DNA of 41,174 bases from a virus: IMG/VR virus record IMGVR_UViG_3300047409_000291, positions 1-41,174 of that record; one strand, given 5' to 3'. Within the stretch, counting starts at the first letter, position 1, and each line of letters begins with the position of its first letter. The notes under the pieces were generated by a model. That model was not told the DNA's origin, searched no databases, and was given only the letters and a program-made list of their open reading frames with translations. The position numbers were made by a program, and so were the translations under genes. Below are positions 16,531 through 33,329 of the stretch, one piece after another.

Positions 16531-17421
16531 TCAGTCCCCCTTGAAAATGTCGGCAACGTTGAACGGGATGCCGTCCGCGTCGGCGTCGGACTGCTGGCGC
16601 CCTTCCTGCTCCGCCAACATCCAGGCGCGCGGCTCAGCCCAATGAATCCTGGGCGAGTACGCGGGCCACTTACCGGCCTCCAGGCACGATTTCCAGGTTG
16701 CCAGGGCTACGGCCAGCTTCGCCTCGGCCAGCGCGTTCCACGCGGGCGCCAGCCCTATCAGCGAGCAGGAATAGGGCGGCTTCTGCTCTTGGACGAGAGT
16801 AACCACGCGGCAGTCTCCGTGCATATCGGCAATCGAGCGGACCCCGCGCTCGTAGAGCACGATGCCGGTGTCGTATCCGGGGAGCTGCGTTCTGATCCAG
16901 CTATCCGGCGCCGCGGAGCCCGGTGTGGTCTTGAAACTCAGGCAAATCCTGCGATCCGCGGTCAACCAATCCGGGCGCACCTTGCAACGCACGTCGTCCA
17001 CATCGAAGATGATGGTCGATTCCGCTTCCCCGGTACTGAATATCCCGGCGATCTCGCTGGACGCCACGAACGCCTGCGCCGCCTTGACCATCGTCCAGAC
17101 CTCGGAAACTTTCCGCTCCAGGATCGGCAGTTTGCCAGCCGCGCGGGCCTCATCTCGCGCCTGCTGCGCCGCTTTCGTGCGCCAGTCGGGCGCGTCCACC
17201 ACCACCAGCGAGGAAGTTCCGCCCTCAAGTAAGCAGGCATGGGCAAAGGTTCCGATGTCGGCGTCATTGTTGTCCTTGCGCGCGCGGTCCGGGTTCCAGG
17301 GGCTTTCCGTCCAGGCATGCAGGGGACTATGGTCCAGCAACGTCTGGGCGAGGCCGGCGCTAAACGCCTGCTCGTCAAGGTATGCGGCCATCGGCAACGC
17401 TGAAAAGATACCCGGTTTCAC
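16531..17421 (-). CDS. RecE-like PD-(D/E)XK exonuclease-family protein with altered active site
   Basis: A 296-residue protein from a GTG after AAGGGAGGGAACAAA. Features of the RecE/DUF3799-type nuclease fold are visible: DIGTFAHACLLEG (helix with His, about 55-67), KVRPDWL (Asp151) and a QxxxY motif (QLPGY). The strand that should end in D-x-K reads LSFKTT: Ser162-Phe-Lys164 replaces the usual Asp-x-Lys. The fold is therefore recognisable but the second metal ligand seems lost. With the Sak4-like ATPase it forms an exonuclease/annealase pair; whether it still cuts DNA is uncertain. Confidence 0.75.
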   Translation of the reverse strand: MKPGIFSALPMAAYLDEQAFSAGLAQTLLDHSPLHAWTESPWNPDRARKDNNDADIGTFAHACLLEGGTSSLVVVDAPDWRTKAAQQARDEARAAGKLPILERKVSEVWTMVKAAQAFVASSEIAGIFSTGEAESTIIFDVDDVRCKVRPDWLTADRRICLSFKTTPGSAAPDSWIRTQLPGYDTGIVLYERGVRSIADMHGDCRVVTLVQEQKPPYSCSLIGLAPAWNALAEAKLAVALATWKSCLEAGKWPAYSPRIHWAEPRAWMLAEQEGRQQSDADADGIPFNVADIFKGD

Positions 17422-17436: not shown

Positions 17437-17556
17437 TCAAAAATCACAGCACACGGCGGCGACGATGCAGGCGAAAAAAAGCGCGAGGCAAATCGATCCG
17501 CCGATAACGTGTCCGAAGGAATAAAGCACAATTGCCGCGACCAGAAATAGAATCAC
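17437..17556 (-). CDS. 39-residue membrane peptide, GTG start
   Basis: A GTG at 17556 follows an excellent ribosome site (AAGGAGGGAGAGC). The product has two hydrophobic stretches (ILFLVAAIVLYSFGHVIGG and ICLALFFACIVAAVCC) and ends in DF. It is the first gene after the structured RNA region and is followed 15 bp later by the RecE-like gene. A real small membrane protein is likely; the role is unknown. Confidence 0.65.
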   Translation of the reverse strand: MILFLVAAIVLYSFGHVIGGSICLALFFACIVAAVCCDF

Positions 17557-17691
17557 GCTCTCCCTCCTTTTTTCGCCAAACCCCAAAACCTTCCGGAAAG
17601 CTCCGGACGGCATTTACTCAGGCAACCCCAATAAAAAAACAGGGCAACCCCTTAAAACCTTCAACAAAGCCCCCCTTCCCCGCAAAAGCGG

Positions 17692-17746
17692 AAAAAAAAG
17701 AGGGGCACCTTCAGGGTAGTCGCGCAGTGGTCGAGACCGCGACCCC
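17692..17746 (-). terminator. Possible intrinsic terminator of the structured RNA
   Basis: GUCGCG (17743-17738) pairs with CGCGAC (17724-17719), flanked by G-rich and C-rich arms, then CCCCUC and eight U residues (17699-17692). The outer stem is interrupted by a small ACC/GGU hairpin, so efficiency is uncertain. A second U7 tract (17639-17633) follows a weak 4-bp stem farther along. Confidence 0.45.
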
Positions 17747-18054
17747 ACATCGATGTTACGTCGCCCGACACGTAATCCTGCGGCTTCGATGTCCGCCCAG
17801 CCGGGAAGTGTTCGGGTAGTTGCCCGGTGTAACCTTCCTGCCTCTGTCGCGTGGGTTCCCCCGAGGTTCCGGGAATTAGCTGACGCGCCCTGACGGCGCG
17901 CAAGAAAGTACGTTAGGCGGTGCGCCCTGGCAATGGAATCCTGGTCGGCGGGACTATGGGCGCTGGCAGGTTGCCAAGACGCACCGCATAACAAACGTTG
18001 AACCATAGTCCTGTGTAACCGGCTTCCATACCGGTGCGCCTTTCTTGAGCGCGC
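17692..18054 (-). ncRNA. Structured RNA of about 360 nt (novel ncRNA or riboregulatory leader)
   Basis: No convincing gene occupies this stretch. The predicted start (about 18054-18052) falls at the 5' strand of a long helix: 18054-18040 pairs with 17908-17896 (6 bp, a 2-nt bulge, 7 bp). Inside it are a 5-bp hairpin (18035-18031/18022-18018), a perfect 9-bp helix (18011-18003/17959-17951) and a 14-bp helix with two G-U pairs (17987-17974/17930-17917). The last two interleave as a pseudoknot. 3' of the closing helix are a 6-bp hairpin that competes with it (17900-17895/17889-17884), a 6-bp hairpin near 17775-17755 (UUACGU/ACGUAA) and a final stem before U8. It could be a free RNA or the leader of the recombination genes. 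Confidence 0.6.
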
Positions 18055-18058
18055 AAAT

Positions 18059-18087
18059 ATCATACTTTCCCCATTTTTCGTTGTCAA
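18059..18087 (-). promoter_or_regulatory. Consensus sigma70 promoter for the structured RNA
   Basis: TTGACA (18087-18082), an optimal 17-bp spacer and TATGAT (18064-18059) make the strongest promoter match noticed in the window. The -35 box begins on the base after the stop codon of the upstream gene. The expected start falls at the first base of the closing helix of the structured RNA. Confidence 0.75.
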
Positions 18088-23833: not shown

Positions 23834-24289
23834 ATGCTGCTGGACATAAACGACAAATGCTGTATTGAATCAGACGCATATCAGTGGTTAGCGATGCGCA
23901 AGCGGGAGGGAATTGCGCCAATTGCCGAGGCGTGTTACCGGACGCTCGGATTTGCGCTCGATACGCTGGTAAGCCTGGGGCTGTGCGCCGAGGACGAGTT
24001 GAAAGCGGCGCGGGCGGTATCGGCGCAACTGGAATCGACGAAGGGTAGGATCAACGCGTTGCTTGGAAAGCATCGGTATGTGCCGGTGCCGGAGGAAATA
24101 GCGCAGTGGGGCGACTTCATGACGGCGGCCGACGGGATCAACTACCGGTTTTTGCGGCAGGTGTGGTGCGCGGAGTCGGTGGCGGAAATCGAGGGGTTTG
24201 CGGCGGCGGCTGTTTTGCTGGCCGAGAAACTCGATCAGGAAGCCGGATGTCGGTCACCAGTCCGTCCGGTGGGCGAGGTGGCGTCATGA
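23834..24289 (+). CDS. Hypothetical protein of the middle operon
   Basis: A 151-residue, helical protein (APIAEACYRTLGFALDTLVS, ELKAARAVSAQLESTKGRIN) with a hydrophobic C-terminal helix segment (IEGFAAAAVLLAEKLDQEAG). GGGAG precedes the ATG. First gene after the promoter at 23714. No family recognised. Confidence 0.7.
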   Translation: MLLDINDKCCIESDAYQWLAMRKREGIAPIAEACYRTLGFALDTLVSLGLCAEDELKAARAVSAQLESTKGRINALLGKHRYVPVPEEIAQWGDFMTAADGINYRFLRQVWCAESVAEIEGFAAAAVLLAEKLDQEAGCRSPVRPVGEVAS

Positions 24290-26618: not shown

Positions 26619-27382
26619 GAGGGGATACCTACATCGGTTTGGTTTGCAAACGCGGCCACAGTGGTTTGCGGTACGTGTACGGTGACCATTGCGTCGAGTG
26701 CAGGAAAGAAAAGTACAAAATCAAAGCTGGAACAGTGGGGCACAAAGAACACGCTAAATTGATCAGACGGAAATCATATCTTGTCAACAAAGAAAAAGTT
26801 GCCAAAAAGAAAATCGAGCGGTCAGAAAAAACGTGCATCTTGTGCAAGCAGTCACTTCCTGTGTCGTCATTCGGCATCAATCGCGCCAGCAAGGACGGTC
26901 TGCATAAAATGTGCAAGCCTTGCAGAAAAGAGGATGCGACCAGAATTAGAAAGTTGAATCCTCAAGCTCAAGCTAAGGCTGGCAAGAAGTGGAGGATACG
27001 GAATCCAGAAAAGGTAATTGCTCTTCGCGCAAAGTGGCGCTTGGTACCTCGTAAATACAATACGGCAAAGTCAAAAAAATGGATGAAAGAACATCCTGAA
27101 TGGAAGGCCACATGGACGCGCAACAGACGGGCTCGGATTAAAGGGTTAAGCGGCAAGCATACGACCGCGCAACTTAAAGCCATGATGATCGAGCAGGACG
27201 GCAAGTGCAATGCTTGCGGCTGCGACATAACCCTCAAGCCGTCAGTCGATCACATCGTTGCTATCTCCAAGGGCGGAAGTAACGACATCAGCAACATTCA
27301 ACTGCTGTGCAAGTCTTGCAACTCCAGAAAATTCAACAAAGATTATTCCGTGTTCGTTCAAGCTCTCAGGGCTTCGTCTTGA
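26615..27382 (+). CDS. HNH endonuclease with two Cys-rich modules
   Basis: The ATG at 26615 overlaps the previous stop and gives 255 residues. An N-terminal Cys module (CKRGHSG then HCVECRKEK), a second ribbon (CILCKQSLPVSSFG, GLHKMCKPC), a basic helical linker with K-rich repeats (about 110-175), and the HNH domain at the end: CNACGCDITL, SVDHIVAISKGGSND, NIQLLCKSCNSRK. Catalytic His and two CxxC pairs are intact. HNH proteins next to TerL can assist DNA packaging; a mobile endonuclease is the other reading. The gene is markedly A/T-richer than its flanks. Confidence 0.8.
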   Translation: MRGDTYIGLVCKRGHSGLRYVYGDHCVECRKEKYKIKAGTVGHKEHAKLIRRKSYLVNKEKVAKKKIERSEKTCILCKQSLPVSSFGINRASKDGLHKMCKPCRKEDATRIRKLNPQAQAKAGKKWRIRNPEKVIALRAKWRLVPRKYNTAKSKKWMKEHPEWKATWTRNRRARIKGLSGKHTTAQLKAMMIEQDGKCNACGCDITLKPSVDHIVAISKGGSNDISNIQLLCKSCNSRKFNKDYSVFVQALRASS

Positions 27383-30177
27383 AATTTGATATCAAACGCT
27401 TCCGCGCTTTTTGTAATCAATTATCCGTTAGCTCTAAGGAGCAAGGCGTAATTAGGCTCGACAAATTACTTGGCACGCAAGAATATCTACTGCAAGAAGT
27501 TGTGAGAGGGCTTGAGGATGACATTCACGCTTTCGTTTGCTGTAAAGCTCGCCAACTCGGGATAACGACCATTCAGTTAGCAATTGACCTGTTTTGGCAC
27601 TATGAGTATACGGGGATGCAGGGTACTCTCGCCTCCGATGGGGAAGAAAACAAAGAAATGTTTCGCTCGACACTAACGCAGTTCCACAACGGCCTACCGC
27701 GCACGCATCGTCTGAGGTTACTCACCAACAATCGCAACATGCTCGAATTTGAAAACGGATCACGCATGTTCATGCAGATTGGCGGCGGCGTGAAACGAAA
27801 AGGCGGTAAGGGACGCGGCAAAGGAATCACCTTCATTCATGCGACCGAATGCTCGTCTTGGGAAGATGAAGAATCGCTTGCATCAATCCAATCTTCGCTT
27901 GCAGAAATAAACCCGCTGCGATTTGCGATGTGGGAATCAACTGCACGCGGATTTAATTTGTTCCATGACATGTACGTAGAAGCAGAAGATGCTGTTACGC
28001 AACGAGCGATATTCATAGGGTGGTGGAGAAACGAACTATATCGTAAAGAGAAAGGCTCCAACGAATATGAAGCGTACTGGGATGGAAAGCTAACCAGCAA
28101 CGAACACGAGTGGTCTCAAGCTGTGAAGATGCAATACGACTTTGACATCGTACCGGAGCAAATCGCGTGGTGGCGCTGGATCGTTGCGGAGAAACTTCAC
28201 GACCAAGACTACGCCAGACAAGAAATGCCCTGGACGGCGGAGATGTCGTTCATATTGACCGGCAAAAACTTTTTCAGCCTGACGCGCGTGCATGAGATTG
28301 CGACGGCGATCGATGCGGAGCCTGCGCCCGTGGAATGCCTGCGCTTTGGTTTCGGTTCGGACTTCATGCAGACGGTGGTGGAAGGCTCGCCTGAGCCCCG
28401 CGCGCAGTTGCGCATCTGGGAACAGCCCGACGACGCGGCGTTTTATTCCATCGGCGCCGATCCCGCCTACGGCAGCGCGCACTGGGCTGACCGCTCTGTC
28501 GTCGAAGTGTACCGCTGCTACGCCGATCGCTTCGAGCAGGTGGCTGAGTTCTGCACGCCTGAAATCACCACGTACAAGTTCGCCTGGGTGATTTGCTACA
28601 TCGCCGGGTGCTACCGCAACAGCATGGTGAATCTTGAGATCAACGGGCCGGGGGAGGCGGTGCTAGGCGAGATCGACAACTTGAGGCGGCAGGCATCCAT
28701 GCTCGGCGCCTCGCCGCAAGGCAAGGCGATCCGCGATGTCGTTGGCCACATGCGCTACTTTCTCTACCGGCGGCTGGATTCCCCGTTCGGCGGCGGCGTG
28801 TACGGCTGGAAGTGCCTTGCTCTCGATACGCCGTTACCTACTCCAGACGGCTGGACTACGATGGGCAAGGTGAAAAACGACGATACGCTTTTCGATGATG
28901 AAGGCATGCCGTGTAGGGTGGTGGTTGCGCATCCTGTGCTACGAGATCATCAGTGCTACAGAATCACATTCTCCGATGGTTCTTCAATAGTCGCGGATGC
29001 CGATCACCTGTGGGAATTATCAGGCGGGCAGATGTGCTCTACGTGGATACTTCGAGAGGGTGACAAGATAGATGCAACTGCGCCTCTATTTGCGCAAGAC
29101 AAAGAGCTTCCGATTCATCCGTATGTGCTCGGGTTGTGGTTGGGCGATGGACATTCCGCTAACGGCAGGATTTCCGGGGCAAAGGAAGATTTGGACAGCA
29201 TCATCGAAAATATAACCGACCTTGGTCTAAAGATTTCAGGTTACGGGAAAGACAAGCGAAACAAGGCATGCCGTGTAAATGTTGTTGGTCTTGCTGCTGA
29301 ACTTGCAAAACAAAATATGATCAACAACAAGCATATTCCAGCTTCGTACTTGAGGGCGTCATTCGACCAGAGATTGAGTTTGCTTCAAGGTCTGATGGAT
29401 ACTGACGGCTCCATCACGACGGGAAGAAAATGCACCTTCACAACTACAAGCATACCGTTGCGTGATGGGTTCTCAGAGCTTCTTAGAACTCTTGGCGTTA
29501 GGTCTCATTACTCAACCAGAACTAGAACTCTGCTGTACAAGGGGAAACAAGTGGAGTGCGCCGAGTCATACCAGTTTTATTTCGTGTCGTATCCAGAAAT
29601 GCCGATGTTCAGATTGCTCAGGAAGCGCGCGTTGATGAACGACAAAGACAACCGCCACGGAAAATCTGCGTATCGACCATTCAGAACAAAAACGCACCTA
29701 ATCGTTTCCGTTGAACAGGTTGAGTCCGTGCCGGTGCGCTGCATTGAAGTCGATTCCAAGTCGCACCTGTATCTTGCCGGTGAATCCATGGTTCCTACGC
29801 ACAACACTACCGGGGAAACCAAGGACCGCGCCTTCAACACCTTCCGCGATCTGGTCGATAAAGGCCACGCCGTGCTGCACTCCAAGCTCCTTGCCGACGA
29901 AATGAAGATCATCGTGCGCGAGAAGGACGGCTTCCTTGGCGCATCCGGCCGCGGGCACGATGACTGCACCGTCGCCTCGGCGATCGCCGCGGAAAACCAC
30001 GTGCGCTATTTCATCATGAAGCTAAAGCAGATGGGCCTCACCTGGGCGAAGGAAGCCGACAAGCGGGCGAAGGTGGCGATTACGGGGCGCGCGGAGACGC
30101 CGGTTGAGAGTACGCTTAGGAGCACGGTCGGTGGGTACATGGATAAGGTCGGCATCCGGTACGGGGTGAACAAGTGA
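27379..30177 (+). CDS. terL: Terminase large subunit with an in-frame intein
   Basis: TTG at 27379 overlaps the HNH stop and starts KFDIKRFRAFCNQL, the usual beginning of this TerL group; an earlier in-frame start lies inside the HNH gene. The 932-residue precursor holds an ATPase domain (variant Walker A ARQLGITT near residue 55, acidic Walker B HATE) and a nuclease domain (GADPAYGS, LEINGPGEA, RGHDDCT). A 331-residue intein (residues 479-809) interrupts the nuclease domain between GVYGWK and TTGETK. Removal leaves about 601 residues, normal for TerL. The motor packages DNA into the prohead through the portal encoded at 31048. Confidence 0.85.
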   Translation: MKFDIKRFRAFCNQLSVSSKEQGVIRLDKLLGTQEYLLQEVVRGLEDDIHAFVCCKARQLGITTIQLAIDLFWHYEYTGMQGTLASDGEENKEMFRSTLTQFHNGLPRTHRLRLLTNNRNMLEFENGSRMFMQIGGGVKRKGGKGRGKGITFIHATECSSWEDEESLASIQSSLAEINPLRFAMWESTARGFNLFHDMYVEAEDAVTQRAIFIGWWRNELYRKEKGSNEYEAYWDGKLTSNEHEWSQAVKMQYDFDIVPEQIAWWRWIVAEKLHDQDYARQEMPWTAEMSFILTGKNFFSLTRVHEIATAIDAEPAPVECLRFGFGSDFMQTVVEGSPEPRAQLRIWEQPDDAAFYSIGADPAYGSAHWADRSVVEVYRCYADRFEQVAEFCTPEITTYKFAWVICYIAGCYRNSMVNLEINGPGEAVLGEIDNLRRQASMLGASPQGKAIRDVVGHMRYFLYRRLDSPFGGGVYGWKCLALDTPLPTPDGWTTMGKVKNDDTLFDDEGMPCRVVVAHPVLRDHQCYRITFSDGSSIVADADHLWELSGGQMCSTWILREGDKIDATAPLFAQDKELPIHPYVLGLWLGDGHSANGRISGAKEDLDSIIENITDLGLKISGYGKDKRNKACRVNVVGLAAELAKQNMINNKHIPASYLRASFDQRLSLLQGLMDTDGSITTGRKCTFTTTSIPLRDGFSELLRTLGVRSHYSTRTRTLLYKGKQVECAESYQFYFVSYPEMPMFRLLRKRALMNDKDNRHGKSAYRPFRTKTHLIVSVEQVESVPVRCIEVDSKSHLYLAGESMVPTHNTTGETKDRAFNTFRDLVDKGHAVLHSKLLADEMKIIVREKDGFLGASGRGHDDCTVASAIAAENHVRYFIMKLKQMGLTWAKEADKRAKVAITGRAETPVESTLRSTVGGYMDKVGIRYGVNK
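28813..29805 (+). mobile_element. LAGLIDADG intein in the terminase nuclease domain
   Basis: Starts at Cys (CLALDTPLPTPDGWTTMGKV, splicing block A), has SSIVADADHLWEL (block B with the His), two dodecapeptide motifs, VLGLWLGDGHS (about intein residues 105-113) and LLQGLMDTDGS (about 189-198), both with their Asp, and ends YLAGESMVPTHN followed by Thr as the +1 residue. All splicing residues (Cys1, block B His, penultimate His, Asn331, +1 Thr) are present, so splicing and homing are both plausible. 993 bp, in frame, more A/T-rich than the exteins. Confidence 0.9.
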
Positions 30178-30554
30178 AGCAGGAGGAAATCATGCGGCGG
30201 CTGCGCGCCTTGTTCGCCACGCCTCCGAAGGAGCGCCCGTTCTCTGTGTCGGTGCTTGCGCACGTGAGCGGTATCCGTGAAAGTCACTTATGGCGGGCAG
30301 CGAAAAGCCATAAAGGCATGTACCGCGAGCAGCAGCGCAGGCTTGAGCGCGCGTTCACGCTGCTGGAAAATGGGCAGGTGGAAGCGCGGCGGGTGAGCAA
30401 GGCGCGCGGCACCTACGAGATTACCGTGTACGACGATCCGCTGCCCGAGCAGACGATGCTCACGCGGATCAGGATCACCGAGCGCGGTCCGGTGCTGGAT
30501 TTTATTGCTGTGAACAAAGCTGCCTTCCCGGTTTTGCCGGAAATCTTGAAGTAG
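30174..30554 (+). CDS. HTH-containing protein after terminase
   Basis: A 126-residue protein from a GTG overlapping the terminase stop. SVSVLAHVSGIRESHLWRAA is a helix-turn-helix, preceded by EEIMRRLRALFATPP and followed by a helical stretch (REQQRRLERAFTLLENGQ) and a beta C-terminus. Position and fold could fit a small terminase subunit or a regulator; no family match was recognised. Confidence 0.65.
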   Translation: MKQEEIMRRLRALFATPPKERPFSVSVLAHVSGIRESHLWRAAKSHKGMYREQQRRLERAFTLLENGQVEARRVSKARGTYEITVYDDPLPEQTMLTRIRITERGPVLDFIAVNKAAFPVLPEILK

Positions 30555-32721: not shown

Positions 32722-33329
32722 TGGCTTACCAAAAGGAATACATGGCGAAGTGGCGCGCGGCCAATCGTGAAAAGATTCGTGCGTATAAAAAGGCCGCGTA
32801 CCAAGCAAACATAGAAGCCGCTAGGGCGACGTTAAGGCGGCAGCGCGCAGCGAATCCGGAGAAAGCCAGAGAAAGTGTTCGCGCTTGGCAAAGAGCCGAC
32901 CCCGAAAGATACAGGGCAAAAAACCGGGAGTACTACGCCAAAAACATAGAGGGCCAGAGGGAGAGAAAAAGAAAGTACGCCGCTGAAAATCCAGAGCTTA
33001 TGAAGGCGAAGCGTCTGAGAGAGGCAAAAGATAGTGAAAGGAGAAACGCTCTAGCGCGCGCTCGTTACCGATTAAATCACGACCGGGAACTAGCTAAGAA
33101 AAAGGAATATATTATTGTACGCAAGCGCATGATCGGCGGCCAAGCCTTGGCTAAAACCTACCGGAAAGAAAATATTGCGTTCATCAAGGCATGCCCTGCC
33201 GGTTTCCATGTTGACCACATCGTCCCGTTGCGCGGGAAACTCGTATGCGGCCTTCACACGCCCTGGAATTTGCAGTACCTTCCTGCAAAAATAAACATTG
33301 CCAAGGGCAATCGGTTTGTTGTAGAGTGA
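32721..33329 (+). CDS. Free-standing HNH endonuclease
   Basis: The ATG at 32721 overlaps the portal stop (TGATG); 202 residues. A long basic helical N-terminus with Lys/Arg/Ala repeats ([38 protein letters not shown]) leads to [20 protein letters not shown], then [19 protein letters not shown], an HNH domain with its DH pair and N. The repetitive arm resembles DNA-binding arms of phage homing nucleases. Insertion between portal and the next structural gene suggests a mobile HNH gene. Confidence 0.8.

Follow-up and report, generated by a model that had tools for sequence, protein, structure and literature searches.

A structured RNA encoded on the minus strand of a viral genome belongs almost certainly to a genuine RNA family, with a conserved structure made of two modules. 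The window, i.e. the 41,174-nucleotide (nt) stretch of viral DNA analysed here (IMG/VR record IMGVR_UViG_3300047409_000291), carries one copy: a 5' module (18053-17896), which begins at the predicted transcription start, followed by an element named E (from 17895 to a putative end at 17706); the RNA and the operon behind it lie on the minus strand. Judged from sequence comparison, the RNA may be a portable leader cassette that acts in cis and brings its own promoter. It would control read-through and the access of ribosomes to phage genes; we give this reading about an even chance. A first-pass annotation had proposed a single, stand-alone structured RNA of about 360 nt driven by a promoter. 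The promoter and the RNA structure were confirmed; the single unit was not, as there are two modules and E is separable, and an mRNA leader is more likely than a stand-alone RNA because a start codon forms the end of E and a gene often lies next to it.

The promoter is of the sigma70 type (18087-18059): the -35 box TTGACA (18087-18082) and the -10 box TATGAT (18064-18059) are separated by a 17-nt spacer, and the -35 box begins one base past the stop codon TAG (18090-18088) of the upstream gene, just as annotated. Transcription is expected to start near 18053. The promoter match alone is not beyond chance, since it is the only promoter-like site in 3 kb and shuffled sequence yielded 1.1. Near relatives were found in IMG/VR via the proteins of neighbouring genes, and all relatives are metagenomic or uncultured records. 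Between the -10 box and the first RNA hairpin there are mostly 6-7 nt in the relatives, so that the RNA begins with the hairpin; this constant distance supports a promoter-driven structured RNA. A different phage (L010) retains AGTTGACAACGAAAAA at the promoter site.

The 158-nt 5' half of the RNA folds better than shuffled sequences (z=-4.3). The 3' half does not (z=+0.6) and, taken together, the 360 nt have an ordinary folding energy (z about -1), so that folding energy alone cannot decide the case. The 5' module consists of a small hairpin, a pseudoknot strand and a long hairpin, an architecture common to other modules. The small hairpin (ACCGG/CCGGU, 18018-18035) was recognized by direct reading and by folding. 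The long hairpin (17908-17996) has basal pairs and 17 pairs without interruption (17987-17971/17933-17917), then a GUUA/UAAC extension; z was -5.3 for the 93-nt hairpin, and none of 500 shuffles was equally stable. It was also among the top two candidates in a scan of nine phage contigs for hairpins combined with pseudoknots, a scan that gave many coding false positives and was taken only as a lead. The helices noticed in the first-pass annotation are present. One of them, of 9 bp, with GGACUAUGG (18011-18003) paired to CCAUAGUCC (17959-17951), is a pseudoknot in which the upstream strand pairs with the loop of the long hairpin; by shuffling of the window alone, a 9-pair pseudoknot has a chance of about 2%. 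Another helix, of 13 bp with a 2-nt bulge (18054-18040/17908-17896; duplex -16.9 kcal/mol), had been placed at the 5' end of the transcript. It exists, but it is not conserved in the family: it is private to the window and kept by no homologue, and consequently has no covariation support.

Evidence that the loop pairing is conserved came from the family. Fifty-nine non-redundant 5' modules were read, and the test was limited to the 50 that have the common 5' hairpin. The loop 7-mer of this hairpin had its exact complement in the downstream part of its own module in 49 of the 50 metagenomic relatives, compared with only 16 of 2,034 mismatched module combinations with different 7-mers; 15 distinct 7-mers occurred. 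Covariation, which the annotation had named as the support to be sought for the 9-bp helix, is therefore found for the loop pairing in relatives, and the window GGACUAUGG/CCAUAGUCC pairing is the same interaction in a subclass, shared with G005 and L083, whose pseudoknot strand is not part of the small hairpin. This test replaced an earlier score test that allowed any helix and was weak (16 of 59 modules above the 95th percentile). In most relatives, a terminator-like stem and a U-rich stretch close the 5' module just ahead of E.

Among the near relatives, L010 has the same promoter start and downstream block as the window and a wholly different interior, which again makes a long hairpin (26 positions, one mismatch); a strand upstream of this hairpin pairs with its loop. 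The contig of L010, G007, carries two 5' modules: a further hairpin of this architecture, with a 9-bp loop pseudoknot and no E (z=-3.9), lies ahead of other genes at 33140-33325 (+), equivalent to L061 13140-13325, and ends at a gene start before the terminase genes. In contig G005 a similar unit with a consensus promoter occupies another genome position, between structural genes, and is 80% identical to window positions 17900-17842.

The core of E (CGUCAGGGCGCGUCAGCU..GAACCC, 17842-17895) was identified in the window with CM R1, a core covariance model trained on 23 other loci with the window excluded. The match reached 37.0 bits, with E=5.6e-8 in 361 kb (the E-values of the model are rough), and held-out family members score 33-75 bits. 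Together with G005 and L083, the window copy forms a divergent subclass; a hairpin that is CCGGG/CCCGG in the window and L083 is CCGUG/CACGG in G005. The fold of E was tested within the main subclass, on 40 of its members chosen to be diverse. Pairing was found in 94% of the cells, compared with 75.4% in shuffles and 25-45% in slid controls, and 330 cells were compensatory, compared with 105 in shuffles. Changes on both sides occurred in 31 of 46 pairs, which form 12 helices including four loop pairings, and none of 500 shuffles reached any of the covariation measures. The fold was partly derived from a set overlapping the test set and is to that extent favoured over the slid controls; given the effect size, this bias is unlikely to matter. 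In short, a model built from other phages recognizes the core of E in the window, and E covaries strongly in its main subclass; a covariance search was the check that the annotation had named. A GGG/CCC loop pairing around a hairpin is invariant and thus carries no covariation test. PK-B is a pseudoknot between a loop and a downstream strand (UAGCGA/UCGCUA and variants), and PK-C comprises two pairings of the fourth loop, GGUG(G/A) with (C/U)CACC, and CAAG/CUUG or CUAG/CUAG.

The 18-nt pattern CGTCAGGGCGCGNNAGCT, taken from the stretch conserved between the window and G005, matched at least 120 viral stretches, most of which continue conserved (..GNACCCAAGAAACACC), and another pattern, drawn from elsewhere in E, matched 92 stretches; at least 176 matches carry E or its core. 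In many members the first 18 nt are invariant, in part because the search itself selected for them. The set found with the second pattern is unbiased, and its members vary in these 18 nt, including CCUCAGGGCGGG, in which the CG/CG mini-hairpin is compensated. E is also found in places where promoter and 5' module are missing, behind different 5' contexts and with a sharp border. Such a solitary E was seen in the 3449 region of L100, where the end of the upstream protein gene reads into the first bases of E (CGT CAG GGC GCG TAA), and similar cases are L077, L149 and L153.

In the main subclass a start codon lies about 8 nt past the last pairing of E. Among 110 sequences the codon at this fixed offset is ATG in 83, ATT in nine, GTG in six and TTG in six; five E sequences have a GTG one base before the fixed offset, and L107, outside the 110-sequence count, has CUG at the start-codon position. 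Counting genes of at least 60 codons, a gene start was found no more than 45 nt from the end of E in 32 of 51 non-redundant loci, compared with 10 and 11 of 51 in shifted controls. The gene begins on E's own codon in L104, L311, L322, L337, L116, L160 and L343. The genes after E are mutually unrelated (YbcO-like nuclease, small terminase, DUF5710, replication protein). In about 19 of the 51 loci E is followed only by a tiny non-conserved open reading frame (ORF), with no gene nearby, and between the close relatives L071 and L179 the frame from the E start codon to the gene shifts; these two observations show that translation from E's codon is not what matters in every case. In the capsid-gene group E leads no gene, since a new promoter and a second leader follow directly, then the major capsid gene.

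The promoter, the pseudoknot and the core are intact in the window copy. The 3'-end pseudoknots are demonstrated for the main subclass, and equivalent pairings may exist in the window. By analogy, E would end on GUG 17708-17706; the ORF opened by this candidate start has 15 codons, and L008 does not preserve its frame. The U8 tract noted at the end of the RNA is indeed found at 17699-17692, behind a GC-rich stem, and is a likely end or attenuation site of the transcript. Beyond it lies a conserved block (CCGUCCGGAGCUUUCCGGAAGGUUUUGGGGUUUGGCG, 17575-17662) common to L010, L008 and two other contigs, where it stands behind unrelated terminators. The operon continues with an ORF for a small membrane protein (17437-17556), which has a GUG start, the Shine-Dalgarno sequence AAAGGAGGGAG and a start region kept in L008, and then with an exonuclease VIII-like gene (DUF3799, 16531-17421; PHROG 412, E=7.9e-43; Pfam PF12684).

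In the leader reading, the promoter would start a transcript whose 5' module folds at +1 into a kissing-loop, terminator-like hairpin, and this hairpin would set how often polymerase reads on. The last pseudoknot of E (loop GGUG.., CAAG with CACC, CUUG) would hold the ribosome-binding site and the start codon in a fixed geometry, and E would thereby control ribosome entry to the following gene or to a short leader ORF. The window copy would act on the recombination operon, that is, on the small membrane protein and exonuclease VIII genes. Unrelated downstream genes, and the apparent presence of two copies in some phages (L088/L133; the modules of G007), are what an element acting in cis would lead one to expect. 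More tentatively, E may be an IRES-like, RNA-only element in which a chain of pseudoknots recruits and positions bacterial ribosomes with little or no Shine-Dalgarno sequence, within a portable cassette of promoter and kissing-loop terminator; we regard this further step as possible but rather doubtful. If the leader reading holds, the functional kind, a cis-regulatory RNA, is familiar and the RNA itself is not.

The main rival to the cis leader is a trans-acting non-coding RNA of about 360 nt, which would work as a free molecule, for instance by binding ribosomes via its start-codon end or by sequestering a host factor, and whose location in the genome would be incidental. The RNA has its own promoter and starts exactly at the first hairpin; the family sits at unrelated genome positions, in the early region as well as before the capsid gene and ahead of recombination genes; tiny ORFs and no adjacent gene are seen in 19 of 51 loci; and the window RNA can be terminated at the U8 tract. 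All of this is compatible with a free RNA. However, relatives have no consistent terminator past E, gene starts cluster at the end of E, and the start codon is kept where only codon function seems to be shared. On balance we consider a trans-acting RNA unlikely, while still a serious competitor of the leader. The leader could also work in the manner of the put RNA of phage HK022 (PMC9378689), its 5' module binding its own polymerase and rendering it terminator-resistant. Both are structured nascent phage RNAs of early phage operons, a likeness of placement, and the module is compact, terminator-like and located at +1. Nevertheless its structure is different and looks unlike put RNA, it has its own U tract, and E with its start codon, which put lacks, would be left unexplained; a put-like function is improbable.

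Slightly less probable still is that the family is real and the window copy a decaying recombinant remnant. L008, the only close homologue, is 93.5% identical to the window over the 17.4-18.0 kb region, and its promoter and first 45 nt, hence the 5' strand, are gone and replaced by a cut-short HNH gene; the poor folding of the window 3' half would fit decay as well. Against this, promoter, pseudoknot and core are intact in the window, and L008 preserves about 160 nt in the 3' part of E without any change, although the flanks differ. The HNH gene remnant of L008 (4350-4614) stops exactly where RNA homology to the window starts, and a free-standing HNH endonuclease gene occupies the same spot in L003, L009 and L010, near the end of the homologue of the window 18342-18088 gene. 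A mobile RNA element or ribozyme, intron- or HEARO-like, inserting behind terminators and genes is very unlikely: the separability of E, its varied 5' contexts with a sharp border, the two copies in one genome (L088, L133) and the nearby HNH genes could suggest mobility, but no intron or HEARO model of Rfam matched, no reverse transcriptase gene or ORF lies inside, the element ends on a start codon and no empty site was identified. The L088 and L133 loci lie on the same contig (3300003375_000008, a 36 kb phage) with identical model scores, and look like two E copies, the alternative being one repeated stretch. Finally, a protein gene or chance hairpins can practically be dismissed: the sole long ORF that spans the region (157 aa, 17614-18087) matches no Pfam or PHROG family and its frame is disrupted by a 1-nt deletion in L008, in agreement with the annotation, which saw no convincing gene across the RNA, and the main refutation comes from the 7-mer test and from the covariation of E in hundreds of cells of the family.

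The annotation had seen no signature of transfer-messenger RNA (tmRNA), RNase P RNA, 6S RNA or group I/II introns, and had considered the RNA undescribed; database searches agreed on both counts. Rfam 15 gave no match in the window at gathering thresholds, and solely far-below-threshold matches at the window locus when E-values up to 10 were allowed. Nothing except one unrelated tRNA was found in 18 loci with E, and the L078, L010 and L039 copies had no match. ARAGORN detected no tRNA or tmRNA in the window or in 12 E loci. The model of HEARO, which is counted among the large ornate RNAs, matched neither the window nor the 18 E loci. An IscB or reverse transcriptase gene beside the RNA would mark a HEARO or retron RNA; the flanking window genes covered by the protein searches encode exonuclease VIII and unassigned small proteins. 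Three other candidates were rejected: tRNA-like T-arms ahead of E in some loci are not tRNAs, an attC-like site was dropped as the repeats are wrongly oriented, and a group IIC intron was dropped as there is no domain V and no Rfam match. The open-access literature contained no description of the family, subscription papers and preprints being largely outside this search. Based on Rfam, the literature searched and its architecture, the family appears to be new. A covarying RNA of several hundred nt that is present in more than 100 phage contigs and absent both from Rfam and from the literature searched represents a large unexplained class.

The nearest known systems share features with this RNA. 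The intergenic-region IRES of dicistroviruses contains a triple pseudoknot (PMC8002689) and has prokaryotic activity (PMC9458429). Like E, it packs several pseudoknots into about 200 nt and stops right at a translation start; its start codon is placed by the structure, as that of E may be. In contrast, E belongs to DNA phages, uses AUG, GUG, UUG or AUU starts, sometimes with GGAG in the spacer, and is preceded by its own promoter and 5' module; the likeness is one of architecture only, with no sequence or fold homology shown. The preQ1 and SAM-II riboswitches act on translation through a pseudoknot at the ribosome-binding site, and E resembles them in having a pseudoknot beside this site and a strongly conserved core; it differs in that it has no Rfam riboswitch match and in that its downstream genes are mutually unrelated. 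GOLLD, ROOL and OLE are large ornate RNAs, some of them phage-borne (PMC12286853). Compared with these and with HEARO, the phage RNA is smaller and has a start codon at its end, and no covariance model match was found. If the leader reading is correct, phages carry ready-made cassettes for combined transcription and translation control that can be placed before any gene, and if it is the structure of E that places ribosomes, E would represent the bacterial equivalent of a viral IRES.

In blastn searches, the window locus had no similarity among cultured phages or plasmids, and the L010 RNA gave only short weak matches with Salmonella, Escherichia and Yersinia phages. Matches of the L107 E in Klebsiella, Providencia and Pseudomonas phages were rejected as a common terminator hairpin. 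Pattern matches in bacterial genomes are ascribed to chance, as they reached at most 24.8 bits with the covariance model, and 399 genomes from the order of an Aquabacterium genome gave no family match with strict filters and no positive control; on these two grounds the family looks phage-specific.

Other elements were observed in the same phages. Directly past E in L080, L073, L082, L084, L094, L185 and L186, a second promoter and a structured leader (GGACAACCGAAAGGCCCATGA..GGAGAAAACAAATG) precede a T7-like major capsid gene; this leader looks like a further undescribed phage RNA. The conserved block mentioned above (CCGUCCGGA..UCCGGAAGGUUUUGGGGUU) stands behind unrelated terminators in the window (17575-17662), G005 (28669-28730) and G009 (30298-30359), its small hairpin appears compensated (CCGGA/UCCGG, CCGGA/UUCGG), and it is possibly a separate repeated phage signal. 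Contig G008 (3300045242_000078) repeats itself at a shift of ~41.46 kb (4009 = 45471), so at that length this phage probably has a circular or terminally redundant genome, and its TGCGCAC repeats (23950-24082) may be an origin. Lastly, window 27307-30177 (+) encodes a large protein, probably the terminase large subunit to judge by its sequence and location. A LAGLIDADG homing-endonuclease domain (Pfam LAGLIDADG_3, Hom_end) is inserted in it and is likely an intein.
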